Assembly (NCBI GenBank): GCA_002118135.1 | Contig: BDIU01000261.1 | Location: 62,001 to 126,000 of the forward strand | Direction: 5' to 3' | DNA from: Trebouxia sp. TZW2008 | Lineage: Eukaryota; Chlorophyta; Trebouxiophyceae; Trebouxiales; Trebouxiaceae | DNA: 64,000 nt | Shown here: one piece after another, positions 2,060-44,300 of the stretch | Layout of the letters: each line of letters opens with the position of its first letter | How positions within the stretch are numbered: the stretch's first letter is position 1 | The notes under the pieces: model-generated | Told to the model about the DNA's origin: nothing | The model's database searches: none | The model's input: the letters and a program-made list of their open reading frames with translations, nothing else | Position numbers and translations under genes: made by a program

Positions 2060-4041
2060 ACGGTTGCCATTCAAGGACTAGTCAACAGATGGCCTGTGTG
2101 TGAAACTTGCTATATAGCAGCTGTGGCACTCACTGTGCCGTCCACGGATCATGCGGACGGTCAACACCTCAATCAAACACCCAAAGCGTCTTATGCCAGC
2201 GGCTGAACTTGGCTTCTCAAGGTGCTGGCCCGACAGGACAGCTCACCTGTTCAGGGTGTGCATCAGGTTGGTACAGGCAGCATCATCTAGCCCTGCTTCT
2301 AGTATGGTTCCATTAGCATAGGGCCCCTGCACCAGTGTATGTTTTCAGCAGCTGCGCTGCTACAAATGTACTGGCAGAATCCTACAAATGCATACTAGCA
2401 GCGCGTCCATGCTGAGCCATTGTGCAGATGCTGCTGATCTGAGTGGAGTGAGTTGTGCACACCTTAGATGAGCTCAGCTGCGCAAGGTGAAAGCAGTCTG
2501 TGCAACATGCAGCTAGCCACAAGCCACTGCAGCATGTGCTGACACTTGTGTACAAGTTCCCTGATGCAACATGTCTTTGCTGGCCTGTGCATGGTCTCCA
2601 GCAAAGCACAGTGCAAGTGAATACGCATGATGTGCGTATCTGCTGATGATGCTGCTTGCAGAGGCCCATCAACATAGAACCAGGACTGGAGCTTGTAGGT
2701 CTGTGCTGTTGCATGCAAGTGGTCTTCATTCCAAATCATGCAAGTGACACATGGGAAGTAAACGATACCGCTTGCAGAGGCCCTGCAATGTAGAAGTAGG
2801 GCTGGAAGTCATGAACTCTGAGCAGCACACTGGCGCCATCTGGGGTGTTGCCCCAAATGTGGAAAGCGCCAGCAGCCTCATCATTGATGTCTGTCACCAT
2901 CATCACCAGTCCCTGCAGTCATGCATGCTTGTTGTTATGCTATTCACTATTCACAGTAGACGACCTTTCTCAGTCTCAATAGGAAGGCCACAGGACACCA
3001 TTCATGACTACAGTAAAACTTTCTTTGGTGTCAGGGCAACAGTTTTGCTATTGAGGGCTTGTTCATTGGCAGCCAATGACAGATCTTGGCAGATGAAACT
3101 ACATTATAGTGGCAGTGTATGCAATGCAGCTCTCTATGGAGCGTATTGCTAAGCTTCGAACCTGTTGGGTATCTAGGCTTGCATCCTGAGGCTTTGCTGT
3201 TGACTGCACATGGGGTCGCTTCGGCCTGTGAAAAGCAACAGCGACAATTGGTAACACATGTACAAACACGGCAGGGTACTTGGGCTTGCTTTGAGACTTC
3301 ACCTGTGCGGCGTCACCGGCCCCGACAGTGTCGTTGTTACAGCAGGCCTCTTCACTGGCATGACCGGAGACTGATAACTGCTGGGCCAGACTATATCATG
3401 CGGCAAACAACTCAATCCCACAGACCAATCAGCACAGCCTTTTGCAAAGGCGGATGTAACTGAACACGCAAGTGCAACTGGTGTTTTTCCTTATGCCACG
3501 CTCATCTCGCTTTGCACATCTGCAAGGTTAGGGTTCATTCATGGTGATTACGATGCTGCTGTGCAATTTGCGCAGGTTTGAGATGAGCCTACACACAGCA
3601 GCTTCGCGGGTGAAGCGGTCGAGTCGGTGCCGCAGTGAGGTTCACTGCAAACCTTCCGGAACAGTAAAGTGTCGCTCTCGGAAAAACCGTTTTGTCTCCT
3701 TTGTTTCGCTAAGCTTAGCTCGCAGCAGCGCTTGCGCTGGCAAAGTCGCCCCGTACTAGACAAACAGCTCTCGGGTGCAACCGAGCATCAGCCAATGCCT
3801 GTCGCGTCAATCGCAGGCAGCCAAGTCATGCAGGGAAAGTCGTGAAAGGCCGAGTCCAGACTCACATCGGCTCTGGCCGGGTACGCTGGCTGTCGCATGT
3901 GGAATGGGCTTGCCGTGTCATCACCGCTTTCATCTGCGAGGCCAGGGCCGTCGCATTTGCAGCCCAAGGCAGCCCGACATTCGATATCCTGTAAGCTGAT
4001 CACTAGCGTTGTCGACTCCGCTCGTGCGCACTAGTATTCAA

Positions 4042-5402
4042 ATGCTCGCGTGTGACGCAGCAACGCCTAACCTCGTCGAAGAGTGCTCTCCAGCAAACTG
4101 GCAGAGCCCTCTAGCAAAAAGCGCCGGGCCGAAACAGCCTGTGTTCGTGGCACTTGGCAAGTTTGATGGCATGCATCAGGGTCACAGGCTGTTGGCTCAG
4201 CAAGCAGCCAGCTCAGGCGCCCTGCCCTATCTTCTGTCCTTCAGCGGTATGGCAGAGGTTCTAGGCTGGCCAGCACGCCTGCCGCTTGTGGCAGCGAGTG
4301 ACAGATCACGCGTGCTGGCCTCTTGGGCTCCTTACTGCCAAGGCAATGAGCCAAGACAGCGATTTATTCCGTTCGCAATGGTCAGAAGCCTCAGCCCTGA
4401 GCAATTTGTTCAAGTACTAGTGGAGAATTTGCAAGTTGCAGGCGTTGTGGTGGGCCAGAACTACCGCTTTGGGTTAGTCTGCCCCATGAATGCCACTTTG
4501 CTCAACTGCGGCAAATTGCAAGCATACTGCTGTTGCAAGCATACTGCACTTGCCAGCATTTTGCAGTTGCAAGCCTGCTGACCCTGGCAGCTGAACAGTG
4601 TGTCCTGTTGAGCGTGCACTGCATCTATTGCTAATTGCCAAGCAGCCATCTTACCATCCTGTTGGCTGTGAGTGCTGTACCTTTGATTGCGCAGGTACAA
4701 AGCTGCTGGCGACAGCAAGCTTCTACAGTCTCTTGGCAGGTCTCACAACATCCAGGTGGACATCGTCAACTTGCTGGAGGCAGGGAAAGGCGCTGTGAAG
4801 GGTCAGATTTCCTCTAGCAAAATTAGAAGCGCCTTGAATTGTGGACACATGCAACAGGTTGCAGAGTCTCTTGGAAGGCCATACAGGCTGATTTCTGAAG
4901 TTGTCCCTGAGGCAATGTGCCAACAACCTTCAGAGCCACAGACTAGTTTCAGGTTGACTGCGCTTGTACAGCTTTGCCAACAAAGATTGCAGAGCAGATG
5001 TCATGCCTATGCAGTTGCTCAGCATTTGCAGTGTGATGCAGGATACCCATGAAGTATCTTTGTAACCAGCCTCCAATGTATGACAGATGGTATTCAGTCA
5101 CTGCTTACACTTCTGGAGCAAACTCAACAGGTACATGCAGCTCCTCTTGCCATATCATGCAAATGAGTTTGTATGCTGTACGTATACCCTTGGTGACAGT
5201 TGCTGCTGATGCTGAACACGTTGCCAACTTGCTGTTTGCAGGTGACCAGGCACTTGAAAGTCAAGATGGCGCAGTCCATGTACATGAAAACGGCATTGAC
5301 TTCTGCAAGCATCTTAGTACCTGGGCACACCAAGCAGTGACAACACAGCCTCGCTTCCTTGCACTAGACTTTCACAAACGAATGATTTGTGATGTATTGT
5401 AG
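4042..5402 (+). CDS. FAD synthetase (RibF-type FMN adenylyltransferase)
   Basis: Transfers AMP from ATP to FMN to make FAD. The nucleotidyltransferase signature GKFDGMHQGH lies at about residues 39-48 and contains the HxGH active-site motif. A second block, VVVGQNYRFG, runs into YKAAGD across the first intron (4473-4694), and the SSSKIRSAL motif follows in exon 2. This order is that of the FAD synthetase half of RibF and of the plant plastid RibF proteins. The C-terminal part (KYLCNQPP.. from about 5040) does not look like a riboflavin kinase domain, as in plant RibF. Further introns lie at about 4910-5042 and 5131-5242. I used the first in-frame ATG; the N-terminus is short (about 33 residues before the domain), so plastid targeting is plausible but unproven and an upstream exon is possible. 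A TGTAA polyadenylation-like signal lies at 5435-5439. It converges on the next gene with 186 bases between stops. Confidence 0.82.
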
Positions 5403-27300: not shown

Positions 27301-30300
27301 GAGCAGTATCAATACACAGTTGACATGACCTTGAGGTCTGTATCCTTGCCACACTCGGCACTCTCAGCACTCTCAGCTGGTGGTAGCACGCGACCCATCT
27401 GTCACTAAGCACTAACAAGTCAACGCCTGCCGTGCAGAGTGTAGGAGACAGGATCTTTGATGAGGGACTGTACGAGGCAGCCCGCATCCTGTTTGCCCAC
27501 ATCCCCAACTACGGCCGCCTGGCCAGCTGTCTGGTACGGCTGCACCAGTTCCAGCCTGCTGTGGAGGCTGCTCGCAAGGCGAACAGCCCACGCACCTGGA
27601 AGGAGGTCTGCTATGCCTGTGTGGATGAGAATGAGTTCAGGCTGGCACAGCTCTGTGGTCTCAACATCATCATCAATGCTGATGATTTAGAGGAGGTGAG
27701 CTTTTCACAACACCCTGTTTGGCATCACATGCAGGATTGAAGCTTGAAGAATGGTGGGTCTTGAATGCTTTGCAGCATGGCAATCATAATCAGTTTTGTT
27801 ATTCACTTGATGGCCAAATCTTCCCTGAAAGTATACATGCCTGGATCTGGTCTTGTCAATGCAGCTTGGGATACATAGCCATGCTGTCAGTATATGCCAA
27901 TTGTCTTCAATTGAGTTTGTCAACAGCAGCGTCTGATGTTTGAAAGCTTGTTGCATAGCTGCTGAGGGTGTTGATTGCTGCCACAGGTGAGCCAGTTCTA
28001 CCAGCAGCGCGGCTTCTTTGATGAGCTGATTGCTCTGATGGAAAGCGGCATTGGCTTGGAGAGAGCCCACATGGGTATCTTCACAGAGCTGGGCATCCTG
28101 TATGCCAAGTAAGCCTTCATATCACTGCAGTCTGTGTCGGTAAACCACCTTGACTTTGCAATCTTAGTGGCAGAGACGCCTTATCATTGTGGTACATGCG
28201 TGCTAGTGCTTTGCTGCACAACACAATTGACTGCAGACACTTGAGGGCAAAGCTGTCTGCATTTGGGGCAAGCCCTCTGTCTGCATGCATGCAGGATATT
28301 TACTGTCTCGCATGCATGTTGTACCCTTTTCTGTGTGCCAATGGCGCTTTCTGATTCTGTTTTGCAATTACCTCAGGTACAAGGACGAGAAGCTGATGGA
28401 GCACCTGAAGCTGTTCAGCACACGCATCAACATCCCCCGCCTCATCCGTGTGTGCGAGGAGTTCCACCACTGGAAGGAGCTGGTCTTCCTGTATGTGCAG
28501 TACGATGAGTATGACAATGCCGCCATGGTCATGATGAACCACAGCCCTGTAGCCTGGGAACACGTGCTGTTCAAGGATGTGGCTGTCAAGGTCAGCAGCG
28601 TGGAGGTGTACTACAAGGCCATCAGCTTTTACCTGGAGGAGCACCCAGACCTGCTCAATGATCTGCTCAAGGTCAGTAGACTGCTACTGATGCCTTCCTG
28701 TGTACAGGTGGCTCCATCGTGTCTGACATGGCGGCGCAACTGCAGCCCCGTCAGGCCTGAGTCATGCTCGCTTGCTGATGTTTAAGCCTGTGCTTGTCAC
28801 ATGATTTTTGGCTGTTACAGAGCAACTTGATGAACTGATGGCAATTGGCAGGTGCAGCATGTTACAGTTTTGGTCATGCTGACTTTCCTGTCTTGTTTGC
28901 AGGTCTTGGAGGCTCGCATTGACCACTCACGCGTGGTGTCAATACTGCGCAAGGCTGACCACCTGCCCCTGGTGAAGGACTACCTGATAGCGGTCCAGAA
29001 GGGCAACCTTGCAGCTGTCAATGACGCTGTCAATGAGTTGCTGATTGAGGAGGAGGACTTCAAGGTAACAGCACTTGCTTGTTTTACAACAAGGGATTGT
29101 ACAAATGAGTCTCCACATGCAGTGAAACTTGAGACTCTGTTTCATTATTGATACTCTGAAATGCTTGCATGGCAGGTCTGACATATTGCTGCAGAAATAT
29201 TGTGCATCCCACAAGCTGCTCTGCATCTCGGCGGTTCATGCTCTCAAGTTCTTGCGGATCACGTTTGAGTACTCAGAATGGTGACTTGGCTGTTTGAATG
29301 CATCAACGCTGCTGAAACAGCATCATCATTTCATGTTGACGGGTGAATTGATCCTGAGCGTCGTCAATTGCATGTGTGCAGGGTCTACGGGATAGCATCA
29401 CTACATATGACAACTTTGACCAGCTCAGCCTAGCGTCACAGCTGGAGAAGCATGAGCTCATGGAGTTCAGGCGCATCAGTGCCTTCATCTACAAGAAGGC
29501 ACTGCGATGGCGTAAGGCTGTTGCTTTGGCCAAGCAAGACAAGCTGTACAAGGTACGACCAGTCAGACCATGATGCTGCCCCTCAGAAGCTCTGTCACGA
29601 AATCACTTGTGAAAATTCACACTATGATCCTCCATTGTCAGTTAAGGGCAGTGCTGTTGTTTGAGCACTGCAGATGGCCCAGGGCTTTACACTGATAAAG
29701 TCAAACACATCACTGAACAGTCTGGTCAGCTTGTGTACGCTTGGCTGGATCTGCATCACGTATTTTGCCTGCAATGGTAAGGATCAAGAAAATTGCACGC
29801 TGGGGTTGCTACTCATTGTGCTGCTTGTTGGTTTGACAAGACCCTCTCTCAAGCTCAAGCATCTGTCTTGATCAGTTCGACCCATGCTGCTTCATTGTTG
29901 GTCGCACCAAGACACAGCATGCTGACATTGAACCAAAATCATTCTAAAAAGTATTGCTCAGGATCCTATAGCAGAAGTTGTCAAACTTTGCTGTGATGAC
30001 CATGTCTGCACTAGTATTGTGAGCAGTACTATTGAGGATAATATTTTAGCTGTTCAGCAATGTCAATGTGTTGTGTCTTGGCCCGCCCCACAAAAATGCG
30101 GCACAGGTCCCTTCGCTCAAGACGGCTGACCAGGCTTGAAGAAATTTTGTAGGGACCACCACATTTTGACAAACACATCTGCATGATGTGCACATCACGT
30201 CAACAAGTTGAATTTTGAGCTCAAGTCACTATGTCTACATCATGTGACCAGTGTGCAGTGGGCATTAGTGTATTGTTGCATTGTGCCCTGACTGTCTCTC

Positions 30301-31299
30301 AATGCATATATGGTGTGCAGGATGCTATGGAGACTGCAGCACAGAGTGCAGACCCAGAGATTGCAGAGGAGCTGCTCCATTTCTTTGTGGAGAACAATGA
30401 GCGGGAGTGCTTTGCTGCTTCATTGTACACATGTTATGACCTCATCAAGCCAGATGTGGCCTTGGAGGTAAGCAGAACAGGCTTCTTGCTGGACCCTTTG
30501 TACTGCTGCATTGAGTCCTGGCGTTTGTAGACCCACAAAATTGCATCAACTTGTGTGCTACATGCCACTACGCAGCCTTGCAATAGTGCAGTGCTGAGCT
30601 TGCACTGTCTCTGTTTGACTACAACCTTTGCATTGGCAGCGTCTGACGCATCTCAACTGCATTGCAAGTACAGCTTGCATGTATGTAATGCTGCCATGGC
30701 ATAGACAGTGTTACATGACTGCAAGACTTCTTGGTGCAGGTCGCCTGGCAGAATGGGCTCACTGACTTGGCCATGCCTTTCATGATTCAATTCATGAAGG
30801 ACTACGTGGGCAAGGTGGACACCCTCATGGCTGACCGCAAGGAGAACATGGAGGCCCGCAAGGTGTGTACCCCACCTGTTCTGTCTCTCTCAGCAGTGAT
30901 TGTGACTACCAAATGCACATTACCAGTTGCATATGACCAGATGCGTGTATGGCATCATTCATGTGACTATCTGTGTGTGCTGGCAGCAGATGGAGCAACT
31001 TGTGCTCTTGTGCTGTGCTATGGCTGCCCTGTGCTTCTCTGTGATCAACTGCAAGGCATTGCTGACATCCTAACAAATGCTATTCTGTATAGGACGCAGA
31101 CAGTAAACAGAAGGAACAGCAAGCGCAGAGCAATGCATACTTGAATCTGATGCCTCTTGCCTTGCCTGCGCCTCCTGTGGCTGGTGATCAAGGCTTTGGT
31201 GGTGGATCAGCGTATGGTGGTGGCCAAACATTTGGTGGCAGCGGTGCATTTGGTGGCGGATCATATGGCGGCCAGCAAGGCTATGGCCAGGGATTCTAG
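18352..31299 (+). CDS. CHC: Clathrin heavy chain
   Basis: Triskelion leg of the clathrin coat, acting in endocytosis and trans-Golgi traffic. The ATG at 18352 starts [14 protein letters not shown]. The beta-propeller follows ([46 protein letters not shown]). Then come the alpha-zigzag repeats of the leg, including [56 protein letters not shown]-type linkers and [20 protein letters not shown], and finally [17 protein letters not shown] before a Gly-rich tail ending GYGQGF at 31299. I count about 28 exons, summing to roughly 1,720 codons against about 1,700 for the family. The first exon is 42 bases (18352-18393). Two introns have GC donors (23546-23903 and 25994-26634). Introns carry hairpins and tandem duplications listed separately. 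Identity is certain; a few exon edges are approximate. Confidence 0.97.
22813..22872. repeat. Short tandem duplication in a clathrin intron
   Basis: A roughly 31-base unit containing GTACATACTACCAAAAGGC and ATTGTGT occurs twice in succession. It lies in the intron between the exons ending near 22568 and starting near 22950. The two units are nearly identical, pointing to a recent event. No coding effect. Confidence 0.75.
26186..26401. repeat. Tandem duplication of ~108 bp in a clathrin intron
   Basis: Two consecutive units, each beginning CCTGTGGNCTTCTAGCCAGAC and continuing through a GGCCAT-AAGCATTGCTGCTTG block, diverge toward their 3' ends. They lie in the 640-base GC-AG intron 25994-26634, downstream of a pyrimidine-rich tract of CTGCTT/CTTGCTGT words at about 26005-26185. 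Confidence 0.7.
26448..26530. repeat. Intronic hairpin, 17-bp perfect arms
   Basis: CAAGCTGTCCAGCTATG at 26448-26464 is exactly reverse-complemented at 26514-26530. Inside it a second 7-bp pairing (CATGCAC with GTGCATG) extends the stem after a small internal loop. The transcript would form a long stem-loop inside a clathrin intron. It could be a decayed inverted-repeat element or a small-RNA precursor; I cannot tell which. Confidence 0.65.
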
Positions 31300-32154: not shown

Positions 32155-33212
32155 ATGAAGACGGCTACTTTGGCATGCTTCCTAGTGGTGGCTTTGGCTT
32201 TAGCTCATACCTACAACGCCAGGGACATCAAAGAAGGTAGGTCCACGCAAAGCCGACTTGGTGGTCGCTGCCTCGTGTCTGCATCCAGTCTGCGGCATGT
32301 GCGTTGCGTGGCACCATCGTCTAGCCGTGCAGCAACCAATCGGTGCACTTTGCTTGAATCTCAAGAGGCGCTTGCCAGCTCAATGATATGTTGTCTGCAG
32401 ACCTGGAAAATGGAGTGAACCACAAACGATCTCTTCTGGCTGCGTCTGCTGCAGCTGCTTCAGCTGCTGACAATGCCAACAGTGCAGCTGCTGCCGCTTC
32501 AGCAGCAGCCAATGATGCATCATCAGCTGCTTCTTCCTCCTCTGGATCTTCAGGTCTGATGAGCTCCTTGACACTGCATCCAAAGCATGCTGGTTATGAC
32601 TTATCTGTTTGCAACTTGACATCGAATTTTTGGAAATGCAACTGTCTGACTCAGTGCTGCTGCATGTAACGCCCAAGCAGCATGAGCTGAGGTCATCTGC
32701 TGCACTTGACATTGCACTTGCAGCGTTTTTCTACCTTGATCATGCTTATGTAACTTACTTCATGTGCAAATGCTGCTCATCATGCAGCACCCAACAAGAA
32801 GCGATTTGCCCAAGTGTCTCACTGATCATGATAGCGCTGACTGTACCCAGACCAGGTTTTATGTTGTCAACTGCATCATTGACAGTGCTTACTATGCACA
32901 ACTCATTGTTTGGCTCAGGCCTGACATACCTGTGCAGGTGGATATGGTCATGATCACGGCTACTCTGGGGACTCCTCCTCTGCAGCAGCTGCTGCATCAG
33001 CCGCTGCTAACAGGGCTGCTTCTGCTGCTGCCGCTGCTGCGTCAGCTTCAGGCAGCTCTGCTGCAGCAGCTGCTGCTTCCTCAGCCCAAGGCGCAGCCGC
33101 AGCTGCAGCTGCTGCTGCTAGCAATGATGATGCTGCTGCCGCAGCTGCTGCAGCTTCCTCAGCTGCCGGATATGCATCAGCTGCTGCTGCTGCTGCATCT
33201 TCATCAGACTGA
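32155..33212 (+). CDS. Secreted alanine/serine-rich silk-like protein 1
   Basis: Three exons (32155-32236, 32401-32553, 32938-33212) join in frame to about 169 residues. The N-terminus is a signal peptide (MKTATLACFLVVALALA), then a short linker with RDIKE and GVNHKRSLL. The rest is blocks of 4-9 alanines separated by Ser, Gly, Asn and Asp, for example ASGSSAAAAAASSAQG and SNDDAAAAAAAASSAAGY, ending AASSSD. A GGYGHDHGY patch opens exon 3. Both introns are phase 1. Alanine codons are mixed (GCT, GCA, GCC), so the runs are not a simple triplet slippage product. It resembles silk fibroin or spidroin poly-Ala segments, and also alanine-rich antifreeze or wall proteins; the composition does not decide. 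It pairs with the gene at 37820. Confidence 0.78.
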
Positions 33213-33885
33213 AGATGACAGAACCTCAACACTGGCCCCCTTCAGAAGCAACATCCTTGCCCAATCAAGACCTAGATAGTCTATGACTCAGCTTGCAAAC
33301 AACCATATGAGAATGATATGCTATCTTGCTATTTTACTTGTTCATATGCTTTGAATCTGGTATACACTTGCATGATGACCTATCTCAATCCATCAAGACC
33401 AACATTTTGTACATTAATCACATGAAATGATCCTGTAAGAATGAAACCTTGATAGTCATGTCACATTCACCGCTGCTGACAAGCTACATGAGCTGCAATA
33501 ATTGGCCTGCCCGCTGTTCTCGTCATCACTTAGGGCCACGCTTAGAGTCATGCTGACAGACTTGTGCTCTATTGCAAACCTGCTGTAACTGCAGCTTTGC
33601 AACTGCTCTGCTCTGCTCTGAAGAGATCTGCATTGCAGCAAGGCAGCAACAATGGCGCTGCAGACTTATGATGCACTCACAAACTCATGCAAGTGTTACC
33701 ACCCATTGGCCTTGAAGCCACGAGCGCTCATGAAACTGCCTGCCTGCTGTGTGGCTCATACATCTTGGCTCACTGCTGTGTGTAGGCCAAACAGGCATTG
33801 CACTCATGCTCTATCACCAGTCACAATCATGCTGTAATGCATCAGTCATTGACATAGAGGCATAGACTGTACCTGCCTTGGACTG

Positions 33886-34700
33886 CCATGAAAAGCATGC
33901 TGATGCCTAGCACCAGCACACACTGTGGCCTTTGCATCAGCAGGAACCACGCTACAGGGTCATGCTGCTTCCCACTCCAGCTTGCCAGTCATGTCCTTGC
34001 CTGACACTGAGCATAGCTGCTTTGAACTGCAACAGCCTCTGTCTTCTTTCTACGGTCTCTGCTGCAGCCATATCTGCCTCTCAGTTTGCTCATGCTACAG
34101 ATACAGGCCAGCTATTCAGCGTCATTAAGGTGGTGTGTTGACCATATTTGCAGCAACTGCAGCAGTGCTGCAGCTCAGCTGACGGGCTGCACATGCTGAA
34201 GAGTTTCACCCAGAGCATTAGAGCAATGCTGCACATTTTTCTTCTGCATTATCCTGAAAGCACCCTCGCTGCAATTGCTGCAAATATGGTGAACACACCA
34301 CCTTGATGGCACTCAACAGCTCGCCTGTGTCTGTAGCATTAGCAAACTGGCTGCATGAGGTGAACAGCTTCACCCACAACATTAGAGCAGTGCTGCTCAC
34401 GCTTCTACGTGATCCTGAAAGCACCCTTGCTGCAGTTGCTGCCAGTACGGTGAACACACAATCCACCGGCGCTCAACAGCTGTGTTTGTGCTTTCAGCAA
34501 TTTGAGAGGCAAATATGGCTGCAGCAGAGACCATCGAAAGAAGACACAGGCTGTTGTTGTTCAAAGCAGCTATGCTAAGTGTTAGGCAAGGACATGACTG
34601 GCAAACTGAAATGGGAAGCAGCATGACCCTGTAGCGTGCTTCTTGCTGATACACAGGCCACTGTGTTTGCTGGTGCTAGGCATCAGCATGCTTTTCATGG
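33886..34700. mobile_element. Large foldback element with nested repeats
   Basis: The ends are inverted: CCATGAAAAGCATGCTGATG at the left pairs with CATCAGCATGCTTTTCATGG at the right. The complementarity continues inward for roughly 200 bases per arm with few mismatches (left arm 33886-34110, right arm about 34497-34700). The core contains two direct copies of about 155 bases (about 34199-34360 and 34360-34515), and the block around 34110-34180 is inverted relative to them. No transposase frame and no clear target-site duplication were seen. It may be a foldback transposon or a product of local inverted duplication. Confidence 0.7.
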
Positions 34701-34897
34701 GAACAGCCCCTTTCACCACACCTTTGAACTCAGCCCGGACAGCTGTCGCTTTTTCTGTGAGGAATTGCAGTCATCTGTGCTGCATTGGGCGCAATTTTTG
34801 CGGGCAGACATGTGTATTGAATGGATCAGAAAGTGGCCTCTGCCAATCTGACAAGGTGGGGACATCAGGCTGCCAGTGTATGCACAGCTGCTGCTGA
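34688..34897 (+). CDS. Possible small cysteine-rich protein
   Basis: A 69-codon frame starting at the ATG inside the right arm of the foldback element. Its last 45 residues contain ten cysteines (NCSHLCCIGRNFCGQTC, then single Cys and a final CC pair), a spacing reminiscent of knottin-like secreted peptides. There is a moderately hydrophobic start but no strong signal peptide. No splice or expression evidence exists, and the ORF could be chance in Cys-permissive TGC-rich DNA. Confidence 0.2.
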   Translation: MLFMGTAPFTTPLNSARTAVAFSVRNCSHLCCIGRNFCGQTCVLNGSESGLCQSDKVGTSGCQCMHSCC

Positions 34898-35474
34898 CTC
34901 TTTAGGCAAAGGCTGTGGTGCAATTGGGTGCTGAGCCTTTGTTTCTGTTGTACTGAGCTGTTGGTTCTGCATGGCAGCTCAGCAAGAATGCATTGACTGT
35001 TGCGGAGAACCACAGGTTGTGTGCTGTTCAATAAGTGCAAAAGGAGTATGCTGCATCAGTACGGTGTTTTGTGAACCTGCTCTGTGACGTGGCAGACGGT
35101 AGTGTCAGCATGCAGAACTTCAGATCAGAAGCATTGTGGGCCTGTGATATACTTGCTCCAATCAGGTGAGTTGACTCGACAGAGCAGACTGTGTCAAGGA
35201 GTCATTGCAAAGCAGCGGCTGTGCACTGTTACTACAAGCCGCTTGCTGCTCAGAGGCTGCAACCTTCAGGTGCTCCATAGTGAATTGTTTTGTCATGCTG
35301 GCTACCAGACTCCTGTCAAGCAAGCAGGACCCTTCACAGACTTCTCAAACTGTTGACTTGAGTCTTTAGACCCAAAACAAGCTTTTGATGTTTGCAGGAA
35401 CTGACACTGTGCAAAGTCTTTGAGAAAACCTCAATGCTTGTCTATATGTCAGGTTAAGATGCAGCACCATCAGG

Positions 35475-36367
35475 CATTTGTCCCAGCTTGCATGCTGTGG
35501 TTGAAACTTTGAGCTCTTTGCATGCCAGCCAAAGTCTGTGCCACAGCAGCGCCTGCTTCAATTGCATGTTCAAATAAGTGCCTGACAGCAGAGCTGCCAA
35601 TCTGCATCTCCAGTGCACAGGATACCAAGTGAATTTGCAGGATCCAGAAGCAGGCGCAGCCAGTGTTGCTGTGAAGCAGCTGACTGCAGCTGCAGGTGCC
35701 ATGTTATACACCTGAGCTTGACTGCTTTGCAAGCAGCTGAAGCAGCGACTTGCCGAACCGCTTCAGACAGATGAGTGGCTGCAGTCACACTGTTGTCAGC
35801 ATTCTGACAGCAATTCAAATTCACAGACTTTGGCTGATCTGCACGATGCAAACAGTGTGTTGTCAGGTCAGTCTGAAAACGGAGTTAAGGAGAGCCTTTG
35901 TGATGTATATTGCCTAGCTGACACGCCTTCACTGCTCCTTGAGAAGCTGCAAACTACTGGAACAGCAGATATGTGGAAATGGGCTTTGCACAAGCAGGTG
36001 ATACCTGTCATCAAGCCAGCGTGTCATCTGCCACACTAGAGTCTGACTCATTGTTGGCCACAATAATAACAGGAGGATCAGACCTTTGCTGAAAAAGGCT
36101 TGTTGGATGACTGGTTGTATGTTGGGCTCTGTAATCATACAGTCCTTTGTTACAGCTTGCACACTGCAGATGCACCTTGTGCTCTGCCGCAGACAGGCTG
36201 CAGTCCTGCTGGCGCTGACAAGGCATTCTGCAACACGACTGGATGACAGATAGTCCTGTGCATAAGCTGCCCCAACAGCATTGACACATAAAGCATGCTG
36301 TTGGATATTTGCAGCCTTTGCCATACGATCCTGTAAAACAGTCAGCGCGGTCCACCTGCTGTTGCAT
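35475..36367 (-). pseudogene. Possible minus-strand gene fragment, unrecognised
   Basis: Three stretches read like coding sequence on the minus strand: around 36210-36350 (LQDRMAKAANIQQHALCVNA, then AQDYLSSSRVAECLVS), around 35720-35850 (THLSEAVRQVAASAACKAV) and 35475-35640 (ALEMQIGSSAVRHLFEHAIE, then AQTLAGMQRAQSF before a stop). They are amphipathic and alanine-rich. I could not find splice junctions joining all three in one frame, and the interval around 35860-36000 is closed. It could be a decayed gene or an unresolved one. No family recognised. Confidence 0.25.
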
Positions 36368-37717
36368 TCAGTGCCAGGTGGTTTCCTTGCATGGTGCATG
36401 GCGTTCAGCTTGAGGGTTATGACTGCTCTTTTGCCAACTGTAAGCAGGCCAATTTGAAAAGCAGGATCCGCTGCTGTTCAGTCAGCAACTCAACAGTAGA
36501 ATGGCTGTGCAATGTGAAAGGCTATGACAATCCTGGCAAGACAGCAGCTAGGCTGAGTGTGAGCAGGTGTGGCATAAGCATGTCACCACTGGGTAAGGAC
36601 CTGGCATGATGAACTGAGAGCTGCTGGCACAATGCAGGCCAGCAATTGCAACCCTGTAAGGGTGATGGTTTCAAGTCAACGGCGTGCTACCGCTGTATGA
36701 ACCAAGTCACATCTGCCACTGCAGCATTCAGCACCAGCGAGCCTTTCAGATGCTGTATCAAATCTTGTGCTTTTGCAGTGTGCGCCACCGATTGCAAATA
36801 TATATATATATTTGTGTTTGTTCACTGAAGAGAAAGGACATGCATCATGGCATATGGCATACATTGTATCAGCAGATGCCTCTGCATGATGTGGCAAGCA
36901 CATTCCTGGCATATGCTCCTTCATAACTGTTGTGAAAGCACTCAGTCCAGTTAAACTCCAATGCCTGGCGTCAATGAAAAGCTCAGCTCGTTGCCAGGGC
37001 TTAATTTCGAATCAGTAATTTGCCAATGAAGCCTTGCAGCCTGACTGCAGGCCAGTTCCTTTCCACGTTCACTGTCTGTGCACTCAGCTTACATGCATTA
37101 GTCATAGCAAGGATGTCAGTAATGCCAAGGTCTGCCAAGTGGACGGTCCACGTTCAATCGGCAAGTGACCGAAACTCGCTGTATGCACACGAATTGACAC
37201 GCTGAGCTAAGCCTAATGCGTAATGCTTGCTAGCAGTCTGTCAGATGACTACATGTACAAGAGAATGTGCTCAGTCCACCGATGAGTGGCAGTATGTCAT
37301 AGCAGCATGCCAATGTCACGCCCTGCTACGCGTGGCGACGGTCGAAAGCACGTGAGGAAACGCTGCACCGTATGCCCTCCAATAAACCGGCCACGTGCAT
37401 GGCAAGCAATCTGCATCAAATCTCATCGCCTCAGGCTCTCGGATTGACCCAGCATTGCAAGCCACTCATTGGCGACTGGACGCGCAACCCCTTATGTCAT
37501 TGGTGCCGCTTGGTCGTACATACGGGAGCCACCAATCGCTGCAGAGATATGATTGCTCAGACGTTCTAACTGCCCACACAGTCGGCTGGCGCTCACTTGC
37601 TTTTGGTCTTGCTTTGATTAAACTGCTGCTAGACTGTTGGTGTTTGCGGAAAGCCAGCAACGCGCATCTGCAGTGCACACGCGAAGGCAACCGCGCAGCT
37701 GACGAACGCTTGACCCG

Positions 37718-37798
37718 GTAAGTGCAAGCTCACTGCGCTGGAGGCGGCTTGCTCTGACAGTTGCCTGGGGACGCCACAGCAACTGACTGCCTACGCAG
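37718..37798 (+). other. Predicted 5'UTR intron of second poly-Ala gene
   Basis: TGACCCG|GTAAGT opens and CTACGCAG|GTCAAC closes an 81-base intron that ends 21 bases before the ATG. It matches the length and position of the 5'UTR intron in the first poly-Ala gene. Confidence 0.6.
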
Positions 37799-37819
37799 GT
37801 CAACAGAGGCGAGCTCGAC

Positions 37820-40738
37820 ATGAAGCACCAGTTCGCCGTCGCCTTGCTGTTCTGCGTCCTACAACTGACCGCTCTGCCCGCGCGAGAGCTGCAAGGTAAC
37901 GTTCACGAATTGCCCCGCATCACGCCGCAGCAGCACTGCCTTGCCTACGCTCAGCATGGTATCAGCTTCCAGCCGCTAATTGACCAGCCGCGTCATGCAG
38001 CTAAAGGCGGCTTTTCCTGTGCCGACTCAAGCTTGTGTTGCCACACGCAGGAGGACGACAGTTGCTGGCGAGCTCAGCAGCCTCCGCTGCAGCCGCCGCT
38101 TCAGGCAAAGCAGCTGCAGCCGCAGCAGCCGCCGCCGCAGCAACAGGTGAGCTTTGCACCCGACGCCACTGCGGGCAACGTGCAGTCGCAGCAGCAAGCC
38201 GGAATTCGGCGGTTGCGAGCATTGCGTTGTGTATAGCGTCTTTTCTCTAAGCATACTCTCTCTCTGTTCTGCTGTGCTTTGAAACTTCATCGACAGCTGA
38301 TTTATGCTTGCACACTGCAGGCAAGGATGGATCTTCAGCAGCTGCTGCTGCAGCTGCCGCAGCCTCGGGCAGTGCTGCATCTGCAGCTGCTGCCGCTGCC
38401 TCATCTGGTGACACCGCCGTAGCTGTTGCTGCTGCAGCAGCTGCTGGCAACAGTGCAGCAGCTGCTGCCGCTGCTGCTTCTGGTGACTCAAGCTCTGCTG
38501 CCGCCGCTGCTGCCGCTGCTGGTGACAGTGCTGCAGCTGCTGCCGCCGCTGCTTCATCAAGCGACTCCTGGGGAGGAAGCTCTGCTGCTGCCGCTGCTGC
38601 TGTGGCCTCAGGTTCAGCTGCTGCTGCCGCTGCAGATGCTGCCACAGGTGAAAATCTCTACTTCGTCTGTTGTTTGGTCCCAGATATACTTTGACAATGT
38701 CGCTGATAGTGTTGTTGATAGTCACTGACGCTTTGCTGTCAGCAAGCAGCAGCTGACACTGTGAAACCAGCTTGCTGATCAGCAAATTAACAGCTACGAC
38801 TGCTTTAGGCAACTTGACAAAAGGCTGCTCCATGCATGGCTGCTACAGCTGAGCCTCATGCATTTGTATATTCACCTTGCTGTGCTCTGACATGGCAAGA
38901 CTGCTGCAGCTGGTGACTCTGCTGTAGCTGATTCAGAAATACTACATCCACATGTCTGCCTTGCAATGCTGGCTTCTGACTTGATGACATTGCTGCAGGT
39001 GGTGACTCCTCCGCTGCAGCCGCTGCTGCTTCCAGCGCAGCTTCGGCTGCAGCTGCCGCATCTGCCTCAGGAGACAGCTCTGCTGCTGCCGCTGCCGCCG
39101 CAGCAGGCAAGAGTGCATCTGCTGCTGCTGCCGCAGCTGCCTCAGGCGACAGTGCAGCTGCCGCTGCTGCTGCCGCTTCTGCTGGAGGAAGTGCTGCTGC
39201 TGCTGCCGCCGCCGCAGCAGGTTCAAGCAAGTCAGGAGGATCCTCCTCAGCAGCTGCTGCCGCTGCTGCTGCCTCAGGCAAATCTGGCTCTGACTCTTCA
39301 TCTTCAGCAGCTGCTGCTGCTGCTGCCGCCAACAAGGCTTCATCTGCTGCTGCTGCCGCCGCAGCTGCCTCTGGTATGCCCTATACCTATTGCTGCTGCA
39401 CAAACTTGTCCTGTCAGCATAGATATTCAGCTGTCATATGTGCACTAGGTCTTTCTGCGTTGCTCAAACCAATTCAATTAAAGACAGCACGTGCCTGCTT
39501 CTGTATGTGCCTTGTACTGGCCGTGCACAAGCATGCCCTGTTGATATACACACAAACTTTCAGCTGCGACATTTGCACTTGTCCATTTTGAGTCTTGCAG
39601 TCAAGATGTATCGTATAAACAGCACACCATGCTGATATCCAAAGGCTGTGTAAGATGTCCAACTTAGTTGTCCATGTTAGATTACCTGCATGTCTGGTTG
39701 GCTGTGCTGATTACTATGCTGTGCTGGCTGTGCAGGTCTGGCGCTTTCATCAAACCTTGCATAAGCTACCTGACATACTGTCGATGCTACCAACGCTTGT
39801 GCATCTGCTGTCAATGCTGCTCATGACAATGGCTGCCTCTGCAGGTACATCTGGTGCTGCTGCTGCAGCTGCCGCTGCCTCTTCCGCATCCAAGGGTGCT
39901 GCTGCCGCTGCTGCAGCTGCCTCCGCTTCAGGCCACAGCTCTGCTGCCGCTGCCGCCGCAGCTGCAGGCAAATCTGCAGCAGCTGCTGCTGCCGCTGCCT
40001 CATCAGGAGATGGTTCTGCAGCTGCCGCTGCTGCTGCTGCTGCATCAGGCCACAGCTCAGCTGCCTCTGCTGCTGCTGCCGCCTCTGGTGGTGAGTCTGC
40101 TGCTGCTGCCGCCGCTGCTGCTGCAGCTTCCAAGGGAAGCTCAGATGACTCTGCTGCTGCAGCAGCTGCTGCTGCCGCAGCCAGCAAGGGCAAAAGCTCA
40201 GGCTCAAGTGGTGAGCAATGCTGCTGACACTGTGCATCAACGTTGATTGCATGCGTTTATAGTAATGCCCATTGAACAACAGCTACACTGCAGTTGGATG
40301 TCACGACTCACAGCAATGTTGGCTCACAGGCACTGTCAAGCCAATGTTTGCATTGTTGCTCAAGCTTTGTGTCAGGTTGTATCTATATCATCAATGTGCA
40401 CCTCCATGTATGTTATCGCCTTTTACAGTAATTTCCTGATGTACGATTGCACAAGTCACCACTTTAGTCACACTGCAGTGCTTGGTTCCCAGTTGCATGG
40501 TCCTTACATCAAAATATCGAGTGCCCTGAAATCATCCCTTACTGTAGCAACAAATTATGGCTCACCTGCAGATGCAAGCTCAGGCAGCGACTCCTCAGAC
40601 CACAGCTCTGATTCTGGTGCCAAGTCAGACACCTCATCATCTCCATCAAAGGGCGATAGCACAGCTGACACCAACTCCAGCTCTGGCAAGTCATCATCCA
40701 CCCCCAGCAGCGCTGACAACACAGCTACTTCAGGCTAG
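37820..40738 (+). CDS. Secreted alanine/serine-rich silk-like protein 2
   Basis: Six exons join in frame to about 468 residues: 37820-37895, 38051-38146, 38321-38647, 38999-39373, 39845-40210, 40572-40738. The first exon is a signal peptide (MKHQFAVALLFCVLQLTAL). Exons 2-5 carry about 20 modules of the form G-(D/N/K/H)-S followed by 5-10 alanines, for example GDSAAAAAAAAS and GHSSAAAAAAAAGKS. The last exon is a poly-Ser/Asp/Lys tail without alanine runs (SSGSDSSDHSSDSGAKSD). Every intron is phase 1 and splits a codon for Gly, or Asp at the last, so each internal exon is a symmetrical cassette. Exons 3, 4 and 5 are of similar size (327, 375, 366 bases), as expected from cassette duplication. 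The architecture resembles spidroins or fibroins; an alanine-rich ice-binding or cell-wall structural role is equally open. No homologue recognised by name. Confidence 0.85.
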
Positions 40739-41363: not shown

Positions 41364-44300
41364 TCAACGTCTTTGCAAAAAGGCGATGCCCACAGCTAGC
41401 AAAGCTATTGCTACAGCAGCAGCACAGGCCAGTGCAAGTCCTGAGAACCTTGATTTGGTTGTAACTTGTGCGGGGCTTGGGTCCCACTGGCTCAGGGGTT
41501 TTGATGTTTGCAGCGCTGTGGCCTCGCTTTCTGTTGTCCTCTGCAGCACCATAAGATTGGCCTCAGCCAATTCAGCGCAGGTATGTAAAGCAGAACAACA
41601 TATCTTATAACAGGCCAACTGGCTGACAGAAGCTATGCTCGAGCGGATTGCGGTAAGTTTTGTCACGGGTAGCTTAGAGCCCCTGAATCGCCATATGCAT
41701 GTCTGCGTATGATCGTTTGTGGTCACTCAAATTTGTGCAGAATATAGTGAGGCAGTGATGCTTGCTTCGTACTGCAGAGGCAATGTCCATGATGCATGAG
41801 ATGGACACCACTGCATACACTTGGTGAGCCTCAGTGCACGATCATGCACAAGAGCCTGACAGATGAAAATAGCAGACTGCTGGGCACTCAATATTGTGCT
41901 AAATCAACACATTCTAGGTAGACTTGGTCAGTCTGGCAGATGACATGTAGAAGACTGCCATGAATGGTTATGTAGCTTACCGCCTGAGCTTGTGCATGGT
42001 GTCCCAACAAGCCTTGTATTCTGGCTGTGACATCTGCTCTGGACTCCCCAGCAGCCTGGTAGTCAAAGAAGTCAACCTGCATCATGCCTTCTCATGAGTT
42101 CAATACTTGACAATTGGTGCTGCCGTAGCGCCAAGAGAATGAGCTCAACAGACATTCATTTGTGGGTCTGGTCCCACAAATGACGAATGAAGGCTGTCTG
42201 CACTTGTACCTGGGCCCTCTGATCACAGGTACAAGTGCAGACAGCCTTCTTTACACACTGATGGCTACCGGGCATGATTTCCATATGCCAAAAACTATAT
42301 GCATTTGCGCTTGTATGATGGCCATTTCTTTGGCATGCAGCTTGTGACAACCTCATTTGCCGTGCTGTGTGTGTGTGTCACAATTGACGTTTATGTGTCA
42401 GCAACAGGCATCGCTGAGCAAGGCCAGTGGTTGTTTGTAGTACTGTGTCCATGCAACACTGCATGATGTGTGTGCATCTCCAATACTTTTGAGTCACAAA
42501 GCAGCAAAATGCAGAGTTTAAAAAGCAATACCGGGTGTGCTGGGAAGCTCAGCTGAGAGGGTAGAGATATGGTGACATTGGCTATTGCATGAGCTGCGGG
42601 CATGAGGAGAGGATGCTGTGCATCTTCAATGTTGTTGCTGCCTTCGCTGTTTTCTGCCTCTGCCATCACTATGTCCATTCTTGCTTGCAAGCTGGCTATC
42701 AAATCTGCCTGAATACATCCCATGGGCAATTTGAGTATTCGTGCTGTCTGGCGAGACATGTCAGGGCACTTGTTGACATGATGCAAATATACTGTTGACG
42801 CCACGTTTGTGCACTCAGCCTGACAGACTTAAGTAGGCTGAGTAACACCAGTGTCCAGTTCAAGAGTGATTGTGACAAAGGGATACTACCTCAAAAACAT
42901 ACGACCCGAAAAAGGGGAGAATCTTTTCTGACTGCCGCAAGTATAGGTGTATGTTCAGCTTCAGAAGAACAAGACTTTTCAACCCAAAGTGTGCACAGAA
43001 TTTGTGATATTTGCTACAGGTCAATGGTGCTCCACATGCATCTATACAGGCTGCAAAGCACACAGTACCTTGAGCATGTCAACAGCTGCATCCCAGGTGT
43101 CTTTCTTGTGCACCAGCGCACGCCCAGACAGCATGCCATCAAGCACAATGCGACCACTGACTGTGGCCTGTTGGCTGCTGCTGGGATCTGTTGTGTCCTG
43201 ACAGGCTGGCGGGTACAGCAGAGTGATTGTTGGTGCCAGGGCTATCTCACCCACAGCACTGCTGCTGCTGGGTATGCTGCCCTGGTATACAGCTGTGCTG
43301 CTGCGTATGCGCTCAGTTTCTGCTGTTACTGCTGTTTCAATGTGGGTAGACAAGGCTTGTGTGCTTGCTAGCACTGGTGTCGTCATGCTCACATGATGAC
43401 TGCAGAGCACAAGCCAAGTCGATGGTGCTGTCATCACACCAGATGCAAGCAGCTTATGTGAAGCAGGCAGCCTGTAAGCAGGATGGCTTTTGGCAACTCA
43501 AGCGTGATTGCAGTGCTGTTTGGTGCGTTGTTAGAGGACTCAAGAGGACTGCTCTGTCTAACATGGCATGAGCAGGGAAGCGTGTCAGTACTGCACCAGC
43601 GTGCTGACATTGTTGGATGACATTACTGCATGTGCTGCAAGCCATGTGACCATGCACTTGTTTATGTCTCTAAATGCACTGCAATCCTTTTGACCATGCA
43701 TTCAGGAATGCTGGTGGTCCACAGCTAGCAGCAACATGCTGTGGGTGGACCACCACTACAATGTGTTGCGCCAAGTATGAAACAGCTTCTTTGCATAAAA
43801 GACTTTATATAGACAACCCAGTGTGGTACTGCAAGGAAAGGGGTAGGGCTCTTCCAAGTAGTTGGAAACAAGTAAGGCAAAGGGCTGCAACGCTGACCTG
43901 CATTGGAGGGGAATAAAGCTTTGCAAGCAGTGTGCAAGCTTGAAGTCACAGACAGCAAGGCTAGCAGTGCTGGCCGAGCCAGGCGGTCTCTGTTTGCAAA
44001 GAAATTTCTGTGTCTGGGAGGAAATGGTCAGCAGCTTGTCTGCAGGCTCTGCTATGCCTGCTGACATGCTGTCTAGTGCCTTGCACAGCTGTGTGGCGGC
44101 ACTGTTGAATGATGCATCAGGCCCGTAGAAGTACAATCCCATAGCAGATATACCTGCAGTGCCAGCAGCAGCGTCAGCAGCTGTGTCAGCAGCAGTGTCA
44201 GCAACAATTGCTGGCACACTTTTGCTACTGCTTGCTATTTGCATGCATTTGGTGTCAGGGCTGAGAACAGCAATGAGTGTCTGTCAACAGATTCTAGCAA

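Follow-up and report, generated by a model that had tools for sequence, protein, structure and literature searches.

Two neighbouring genes, gene 1 and gene 2, in the 64,000-nucleotide (nt) stretch of DNA analysed here (the window) encode proteins built of short alanine (Ala) blocks and are members of a family that numbers at least seven genes in the same genome. The Ala-block pattern is under purifying selection in two pairs of family members, gene 1 with C194 and C237 with C233. Judging from the sequences, the proteins of the family are likely secreted and would likely serve as silk-like structural components of the cell wall or extracellular matrix, a reading to which we assign a probability of about 0.57. 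Of the roles offered by an earlier note on this DNA, a fibre or wall polymer continues to be the best. The window (G+C content about 50%) lies on contig C248 of a 68.5-Mb genome assembled in 527 contigs; the chlorophyll a/b-binding family gave 47 exon-level matches in this genome, which is therefore that of a photosynthetic eukaryote, and the host is likely a green alga of lichen type.

Both genes were found where the earlier note had placed them, gene 1 at 32155-33212 (+ strand, three exons, two introns, 169 residues) and gene 2 at 37820-40738 (+ strand, six exons, five introns, 468 residues). All seven introns carry GT-AG ends and interrupt the frame in phase 1, and the exons join in frame, as had been claimed:

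32155-32236, + strand: gene 1 exon 1, start codon and signal-peptide-like stretch MKTATLACFLVVALALAHTYNARDIKE, with a similar stretch in C194 and in the public contig P0001
32401-32553, + strand: gene 1 exon 2, short pro-stretch up to K-R-S-L-L, a putative site-1-protease (S1P)-type site, then the first Ala/Ser blocks
32938-33212, + strand: gene 1 exon 3, spacer GYGHDHGYSGDSS, Ala blocks and stop; contains the 76-codon gapless match to C194
37820-37895, + strand: gene 2 exon 1, start codon and signal-peptide-like stretch MKHQFAVALLFCVLQLTALPARELQ, 25 of 26 residues identical in the public sequence P0006
38051-38146, + strand: gene 2 exon 2, G-R-Q-L-L site, then the first Ala blocks
38321-38647, + strand: gene 2 exon 3, Ala-block array
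38999-39373, + strand: gene 2 exon 4, Ala-block array with a helical structure model of low confidence
39845-40210, + strand: gene 2 exon 5, Ala-block array
40572-40738, + strand: gene 2 exon 6, tail rich in Ser, Asp and Lys, without Ala blocks, and stop

The predicted mature parts consist mainly of Ala, Ser, Gly and Asp, in agreement with the earlier description: 54, 24, 7 and 5% in gene 1 and 53, 24, 9 and 5% in gene 2. Counted over the whole proteins, gene 1 has Ala 76 and Ser 32, and gene 2 has Ala 235, Ser 106, Gly 43 and Asp 21. The silk-like arrangement was likewise recovered. In gene 2, Ala blocks of 5-11 residues number 27, and 12 of these have a length of exactly eight; the blocks are separated by mostly short, Ser-rich linkers such as GDS, GNS and SGDSSS. 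Ala codons are mixed, as the earlier note had said, both in gene 2 (GCT 124, GCC 62, GCA 47, GCG 2) and in gene 1 (GCT 46, GCC 10, GCA 18, GCG 2). Among the 15 rows of a tandem-repeat finder, whose periods range over 3-75 bases, 12 had 62-81% matches and three short ones 89-93%. Pfam at E values up to 1 assigned no family to gene 1, gene 2 or C237, and gene 2 gave a single match in PDB, at E 0.9.

Genome searches followed by reading of the DNA added five members: C194 (190 residues), which is the sister of gene 1, C237 (362 residues), C233 (321 residues up to an in-frame stop), C122 (421 residues, near a contig end and with an uncertain 3′ end) and C244, a partial model. Both genes of the "pair" reported in the earlier note exist, but they are only part of the family. 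The first genome search pointed to places on 26 contigs besides C248, of which 20 were fetched widely, C215 was read as a short locus with long pure Ala tracts, and C428, C281, C273, C254 and C202 were left unread. Four of the 20 fetched stretches (L016-L019) held family genes, and none was recognised in the other 16 by eye in a filtered list. C244 came from a later genome search, and its third exon, whose donor is unresolved, was excluded from the block statistics. Since weaker places from the genome searches remained unread, seven genes is a lower bound. At C272:135672-135812 an eighth candidate showed 51% identity over 47 residues to C194 residues 24-70 (E 0.001).

The members share one exon plan, in which a signal-peptide-like exon 1 (assigned by eye in all members) is followed by a phase-1 intron, an R-x-(L/I)-L motif in exon 2, and Ala/Ser arrays. 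The motif is present in all seven members (R-x-L-L in all six full models, R-K-I-L in C244), compared with 16 of the 441 open stretches that begin with Met in the window, counted in six frames and not all of them genes. Every intron of the six full models is in phase 1, and one donor is GC. The mature part of five of these models contains 44-54% Ala and 21-24% Ser, and few hydrophobic residues other than Ala follow R-x-L-L (1-8 large ones, V/I/L/M/F/W/Y, per chain). The GC donor (gcacgt, L017 4148-4153) stands after the fourth exon of C237, where C233 has GT. In C233, a TGA at L019 4485-4487 ends the last exon, and the frame continues for 80 residues into a Ser/Pro-rich tail like that of C237; this TGA may have arisen recently as a stop, may be read through, or may reflect a splice that was missed. 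A Cys-rich domain considered in C233 was rejected when reading of the DNA showed it to be a translated intron.

The codon-level comparison was made on gapless alignments, so the aligner could not flatter its outcome. Over 117 codons of exon 3, C237 and C233 differ at a proportion of 0.526 of synonymous sites (pS) and 0.172 of nonsynonymous sites (pN), which corresponds to a ratio of nonsynonymous to synonymous rates (dN/dS) of 0.22 (bootstrap 0.12-0.38). Gene 1 and C194 gave the same ratio of 0.22 over 76 codons (pS 0.442, pN 0.133, bootstrap 0.10-0.43). When one sequence was rotated by three or more codons, pN was always at least 0.371 for C237/C233 (111 rotations) and at least 0.295 for gene 1/C194 (70 rotations), and full-length alignments of the two pairs yielded dN/dS of 0.24 and 0.25. 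A synonymous difference was found in 32 of 62 aligned Ala pairs of C237/C233 and in 23 of 47 of gene 1/C194; with about half of the pairs differing in this way, the Ala blocks are old and have been preserved as protein. A value of 0.31 for gene 1 against gene 2 was discarded, the N-terminal alignment being plainly wrong.

Relatives were also present in public sequences, where three protein searches each scored about 8,000 candidates (those sharing most words), so that the counts are lower bounds. They share with the family either the signal peptide together with R-x-L-L or the 117-residue block pattern in gapless register. P0001, a 47-kb ENA contig, matched at E 1.0e-6 with gene 1 alone as query and carries MKAATVTCVLVVILALAHVYEARDVQG and RRQLLQSSAAAAAA. 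P0002 nearly duplicates it but for a changed start, and P0003 (E 4.3e-4) is organized in the same way. P0006 (profile E 0.03) has a shorter or broken array and comes from a near relative, as both exon 1 and the read-through intron 1 of gene 2 match it. P0012, P0013 and P0014 (E 2.2e-23 to 1.8e-20) contain read-through exons aligning to exon 3 of C237 and C233. Without a gap over 117 residues, P0012 agrees with C237 at 92 positions (79%) and with C233 at 100 (85%), compared with maxima of 0.591 and 0.644, respectively, in 100 residue shuffles and of 75.5% and 78.4% in 100 shuffles of block and linker order, the latter with about 20 gaps on average. P0026 (E 1.4e-4) has an array like that of gene 2 with the linkers GDS and SSGDSS. 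A scan of viral contigs with profiles A2 and A1 found no relative.

The earlier note had named the absence of any orthologue together with neutral codon evolution as grounds for abandoning its reading; relatives exist, and the two pairs tested are constrained, so that this combination failed on both counts. These data also bear on the notion that the arrays are non-functional low-complexity sequence produced by triplet slippage and mistaken for genes. Many other GCN/CAG tracts do occur in the genome, and the 16 of 20 fetched stretches without a recognised Ala/Ser gene would fit this notion, which is nevertheless contradicted by the mixed codons, the exon plan common to seven genes, the dN/dS of 0.22 in two gapless pairs and the relatives in other genomes; we regard it as barely credible.

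The N-terminal organization suggests how the proteins would reach their destination. The putative signal peptide would route the chain into the secretory pathway, where a subtilase resembling site-1 protease may cut after R-x-L-L, so that the mature chain would begin in the repeat. A site of the RxxL/RxLx type lies between the signal-peptide-like start and the repeat in all seven members, with RSLL at residue 37 of gene 1, RQLL at residue 28 of gene 2, NRKLL-QAS in C237 and NRKIL-QSS in C244, and processing of the S1P (SBT6.1) type is predicted. AtS1P/SBT6.1 cleaves RxxL/RxLx, for example INRRIL-ATRRY in AtRALF23 (PMC13082318). The likeness to the S1P site of RALF precursors would also suit a precursor for signalling or surface recognition, from which cleavage at R-x-L-L frees a small active piece while the Ala arrays act as a spacer. 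We consider such a role very unlikely, since inspection by eye of gene 1, gene 2 and C194 revealed no evident non-repeat domain beyond the site, and Pfam found none in gene 1, gene 2 or C237.

Under the silk-like wall or matrix reading, the Ala blocks of neighbouring chains would pack outside the cell, as beta-sheet or helix, and form physical cross-links, with the short Ser/Gly/Asp/Lys/Asn linkers remaining hydrated and flexible. In animals, chains of this kind form physical networks through the packing of Ala blocks from different molecules. In some members a Ser-Pro-rich stretch that is likely to be hydroxylated and glycosylated would anchor the chain in the wall. Such stretches were found in C237 (SPPSPPPPSPP), C122 and C244, and also in frame behind the stop of C233. 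They are typical of chlorophyte wall glycoproteins, the hydroxyproline-rich ones of the pherophorin/extensin type, and constitute the main clue to a wall location. Unlike these glycoproteins, gene 1 (no Ser-Pro), gene 2 (one) and C194 have no Ser-Pro-rich stretch, Pfam found no match in gene 1, gene 2 or C237, and to our knowledge Ala arrays are foreign to that class. In C122, S-P-W-G-x-S-P repeats follow the Ala region (L018 7975-8270), and a Pro/Asp-rich exon precedes it.

Several observations weigh against the silk-like wall or matrix reading. The wall clue rests mainly on the Ser-Pro stretches of other members and not on gene 1 or gene 2 themselves. C122, the most divergent member, with SPWG repeats, has a mature part with 18% Ala and 25 large hydrophobic residues and may be only a loose relative. 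The evidence for selection covers gene 1, C194, C237 and C233; gene 2 has no paralogue of sufficient closeness for such a comparison. AlphaFold2 folded exon 4 of gene 2, taken alone and without an alignment, into a helical model (mean predicted local distance difference test, pLDDT, 61.4; predicted template modelling score, pTM, 0.37), and a survey of human poly-Ala regions reported a strong alpha-helix tendency (PMC9620824). Such a tendency speaks against a beta-silk, yet not against packing of the blocks. The asymmetry expected of helix capping was itself absent from 71 blocks of seven members, both for Gly at +1 to +3 versus −3 to −1 (p 0.7) and for S/D/N/T at −1 versus +1 (p 0.65).

Helical Ala blocks would also be compatible with an Ala-rich ice-binding or freeze-protective protein acting outside the cell, an option of the earlier note that our analysis weakened. 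Like fish antifreeze proteins of type I and Maxi, the algal proteins are Ala-rich and predicted to be secreted; in addition, oyster look-alikes carry the database name "antifreeze protein Maxi-like", and a Trebouxia annotation lists two proteins, secreted and of unknown role, under the name "antifreeze protein 1-like" (PMC12712428). Against this, the oyster name reflects no more than a likeness, and Gly in many of the algal linkers would break long helices. Type I antifreeze carries Thr at every 11 residues. The mature algal proteins contain 0-15 Thr each (C244 excluded), and pairs 11 residues apart number zero in five of the six modelled proteins and one in the sixth; most of their blocks are instead flanked by Ser. 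We therefore judge an ice-binding role improbable.

Spider major-ampullate spidroins and saturniid moth fibroins alternate poly-Ala blocks with Gly/Ser-rich linkers, as the algal genes do. The algal proteins differ in being small and, in gene 2, in having mostly short, Ser-rich linkers, and for the three members submitted to Pfam (gene 1, gene 2 and C237) no spidroin terminal domain was detected at E values up to 1. Oyster proteins named "spidroin-1-like" or "antifreeze protein Maxi-like" (compare Shelk2, MSI60 and Hic74 of shells) come closer, with a signal-peptide-like start, blocks of 5-10 Ala and short linkers, often G-x-N; poly-Ala shell proteins of this kind have been termed silk-like (PMC6542584). 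The oyster proteins nevertheless differ in their signal peptides, their arrays are separated by long non-Ala segments that contain large hydrophobic residues, and no R-x-L-L was seen near the start of the sequences examined. Their blocks (five proteins, related sequences pooled) are preferentially followed by Gly (p 0.0097) and preceded by S/D/N/T (p 0.012), neither of which holds for the algal blocks. The likeness is most probably due to convergence. A protein of Botryococcus braunii, Bobra.0124s0018.1 (P0033), shares an N-terminal hydrophobic stretch, Ala8-9 blocks and the linkers NN, GQ and NGNS with the family, but has R-R-L-K in place of R-x-L-L, and its profile score (E 0.011) falls below those of many oyster proteins; homology is not established. 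With profile A3, matches to named oyster proteins began at E 1.4e-8 (P0018) and those to their unnamed look-alikes in ENA at E 3.5e-9. Because the oyster scores beat that of B. braunii, scores alone measure composition, and neither was counted as family.

The same composition could belong to a flexible, hydrated matrix protein or a disordered one protecting against desiccation, whose chains would fill an extracellular layer and vitrify on drying without forming crystals. The high Ser/Gly content, the short linkers and the low-confidence structure model are compatible with such a filler, and drying would be part of life if the alga is a lichen photobiont. However, pure blocks of 5-11 Ala tend to associate, a Lys/Glu-rich composition of the late embryogenesis abundant (LEA) type is lacking, and block lengths are largely kept across relatives, beyond what a filler needs. 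We find this alternative rather unlikely. A further-reaching form of the silk-like reading, which we put forward only tentatively as a doubtful possibility, is that trebouxiophyte algae independently evolved a true silk outside animals: a processed, secreted, multigene Ala-block family that would crystallise in the wall or sheath. Members with a Ser-Pro anchor would then hold the network in place, the anchorless gene 1 and gene 2 would fill it, and a site-1-type protease would free the mature end.

Silk-like Ala-block proteins have been described from spiders, insects and molluscs. A conserved family of this kind in walled microalgae would, if true, represent an independent invention of silk's material principle, made in cells that, should the alga be a lichen photobiont, may have to bend and to go through drying and rewetting together with their walls. 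The family would give wall biologists a set of genes to seek in secretomes like the one of Trebouxia sp. A48, in which 53 of the 103 proteins predicted to be secreted lacked any annotation (PMC12712428), and would offer material scientists a small silk analogue. It also serves as a warning that such genes may escape through low-complexity filters or receive the name "antifreeze" by likeness. No description of such an algal family was found in openly readable papers, most subscription journals lying outside the scope; the word alanine is absent from the main text of the Trebouxia study (PMC12712428), and the words alanine and antifreeze are absent from that of an Asterochloris study (PMC6652019), supplements being outside the scope in both cases.

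Among the surroundings of the two genes, Pfam was applied to 10 of the 30 open stretches of at least 150 residues in the window and matched five, two of them below the curated cut-off; none was silk- or wall-related. Matches included:

4000-4578: flavin adenine dinucleotide (FAD) synthetase
28231-28782: clathrin-repeat protein
43759-44283: ODR4-like protein

Just upstream of gene 1, at 31090-31299, lies what by eye is the end of a neighbour gene, with a Gly-rich frame (GGGSYGG-type, ending QQGYGQGF-stop) of the sort found in RNA-binding proteins. Between gene 1 and gene 2, at 33886-34700, an inverted repeat with 221-nt arms, 88% complementary and 373 nt apart, encloses two smaller pairs and looks like a foldback element or one of the miniature inverted-repeat transposable element (MITE) type.

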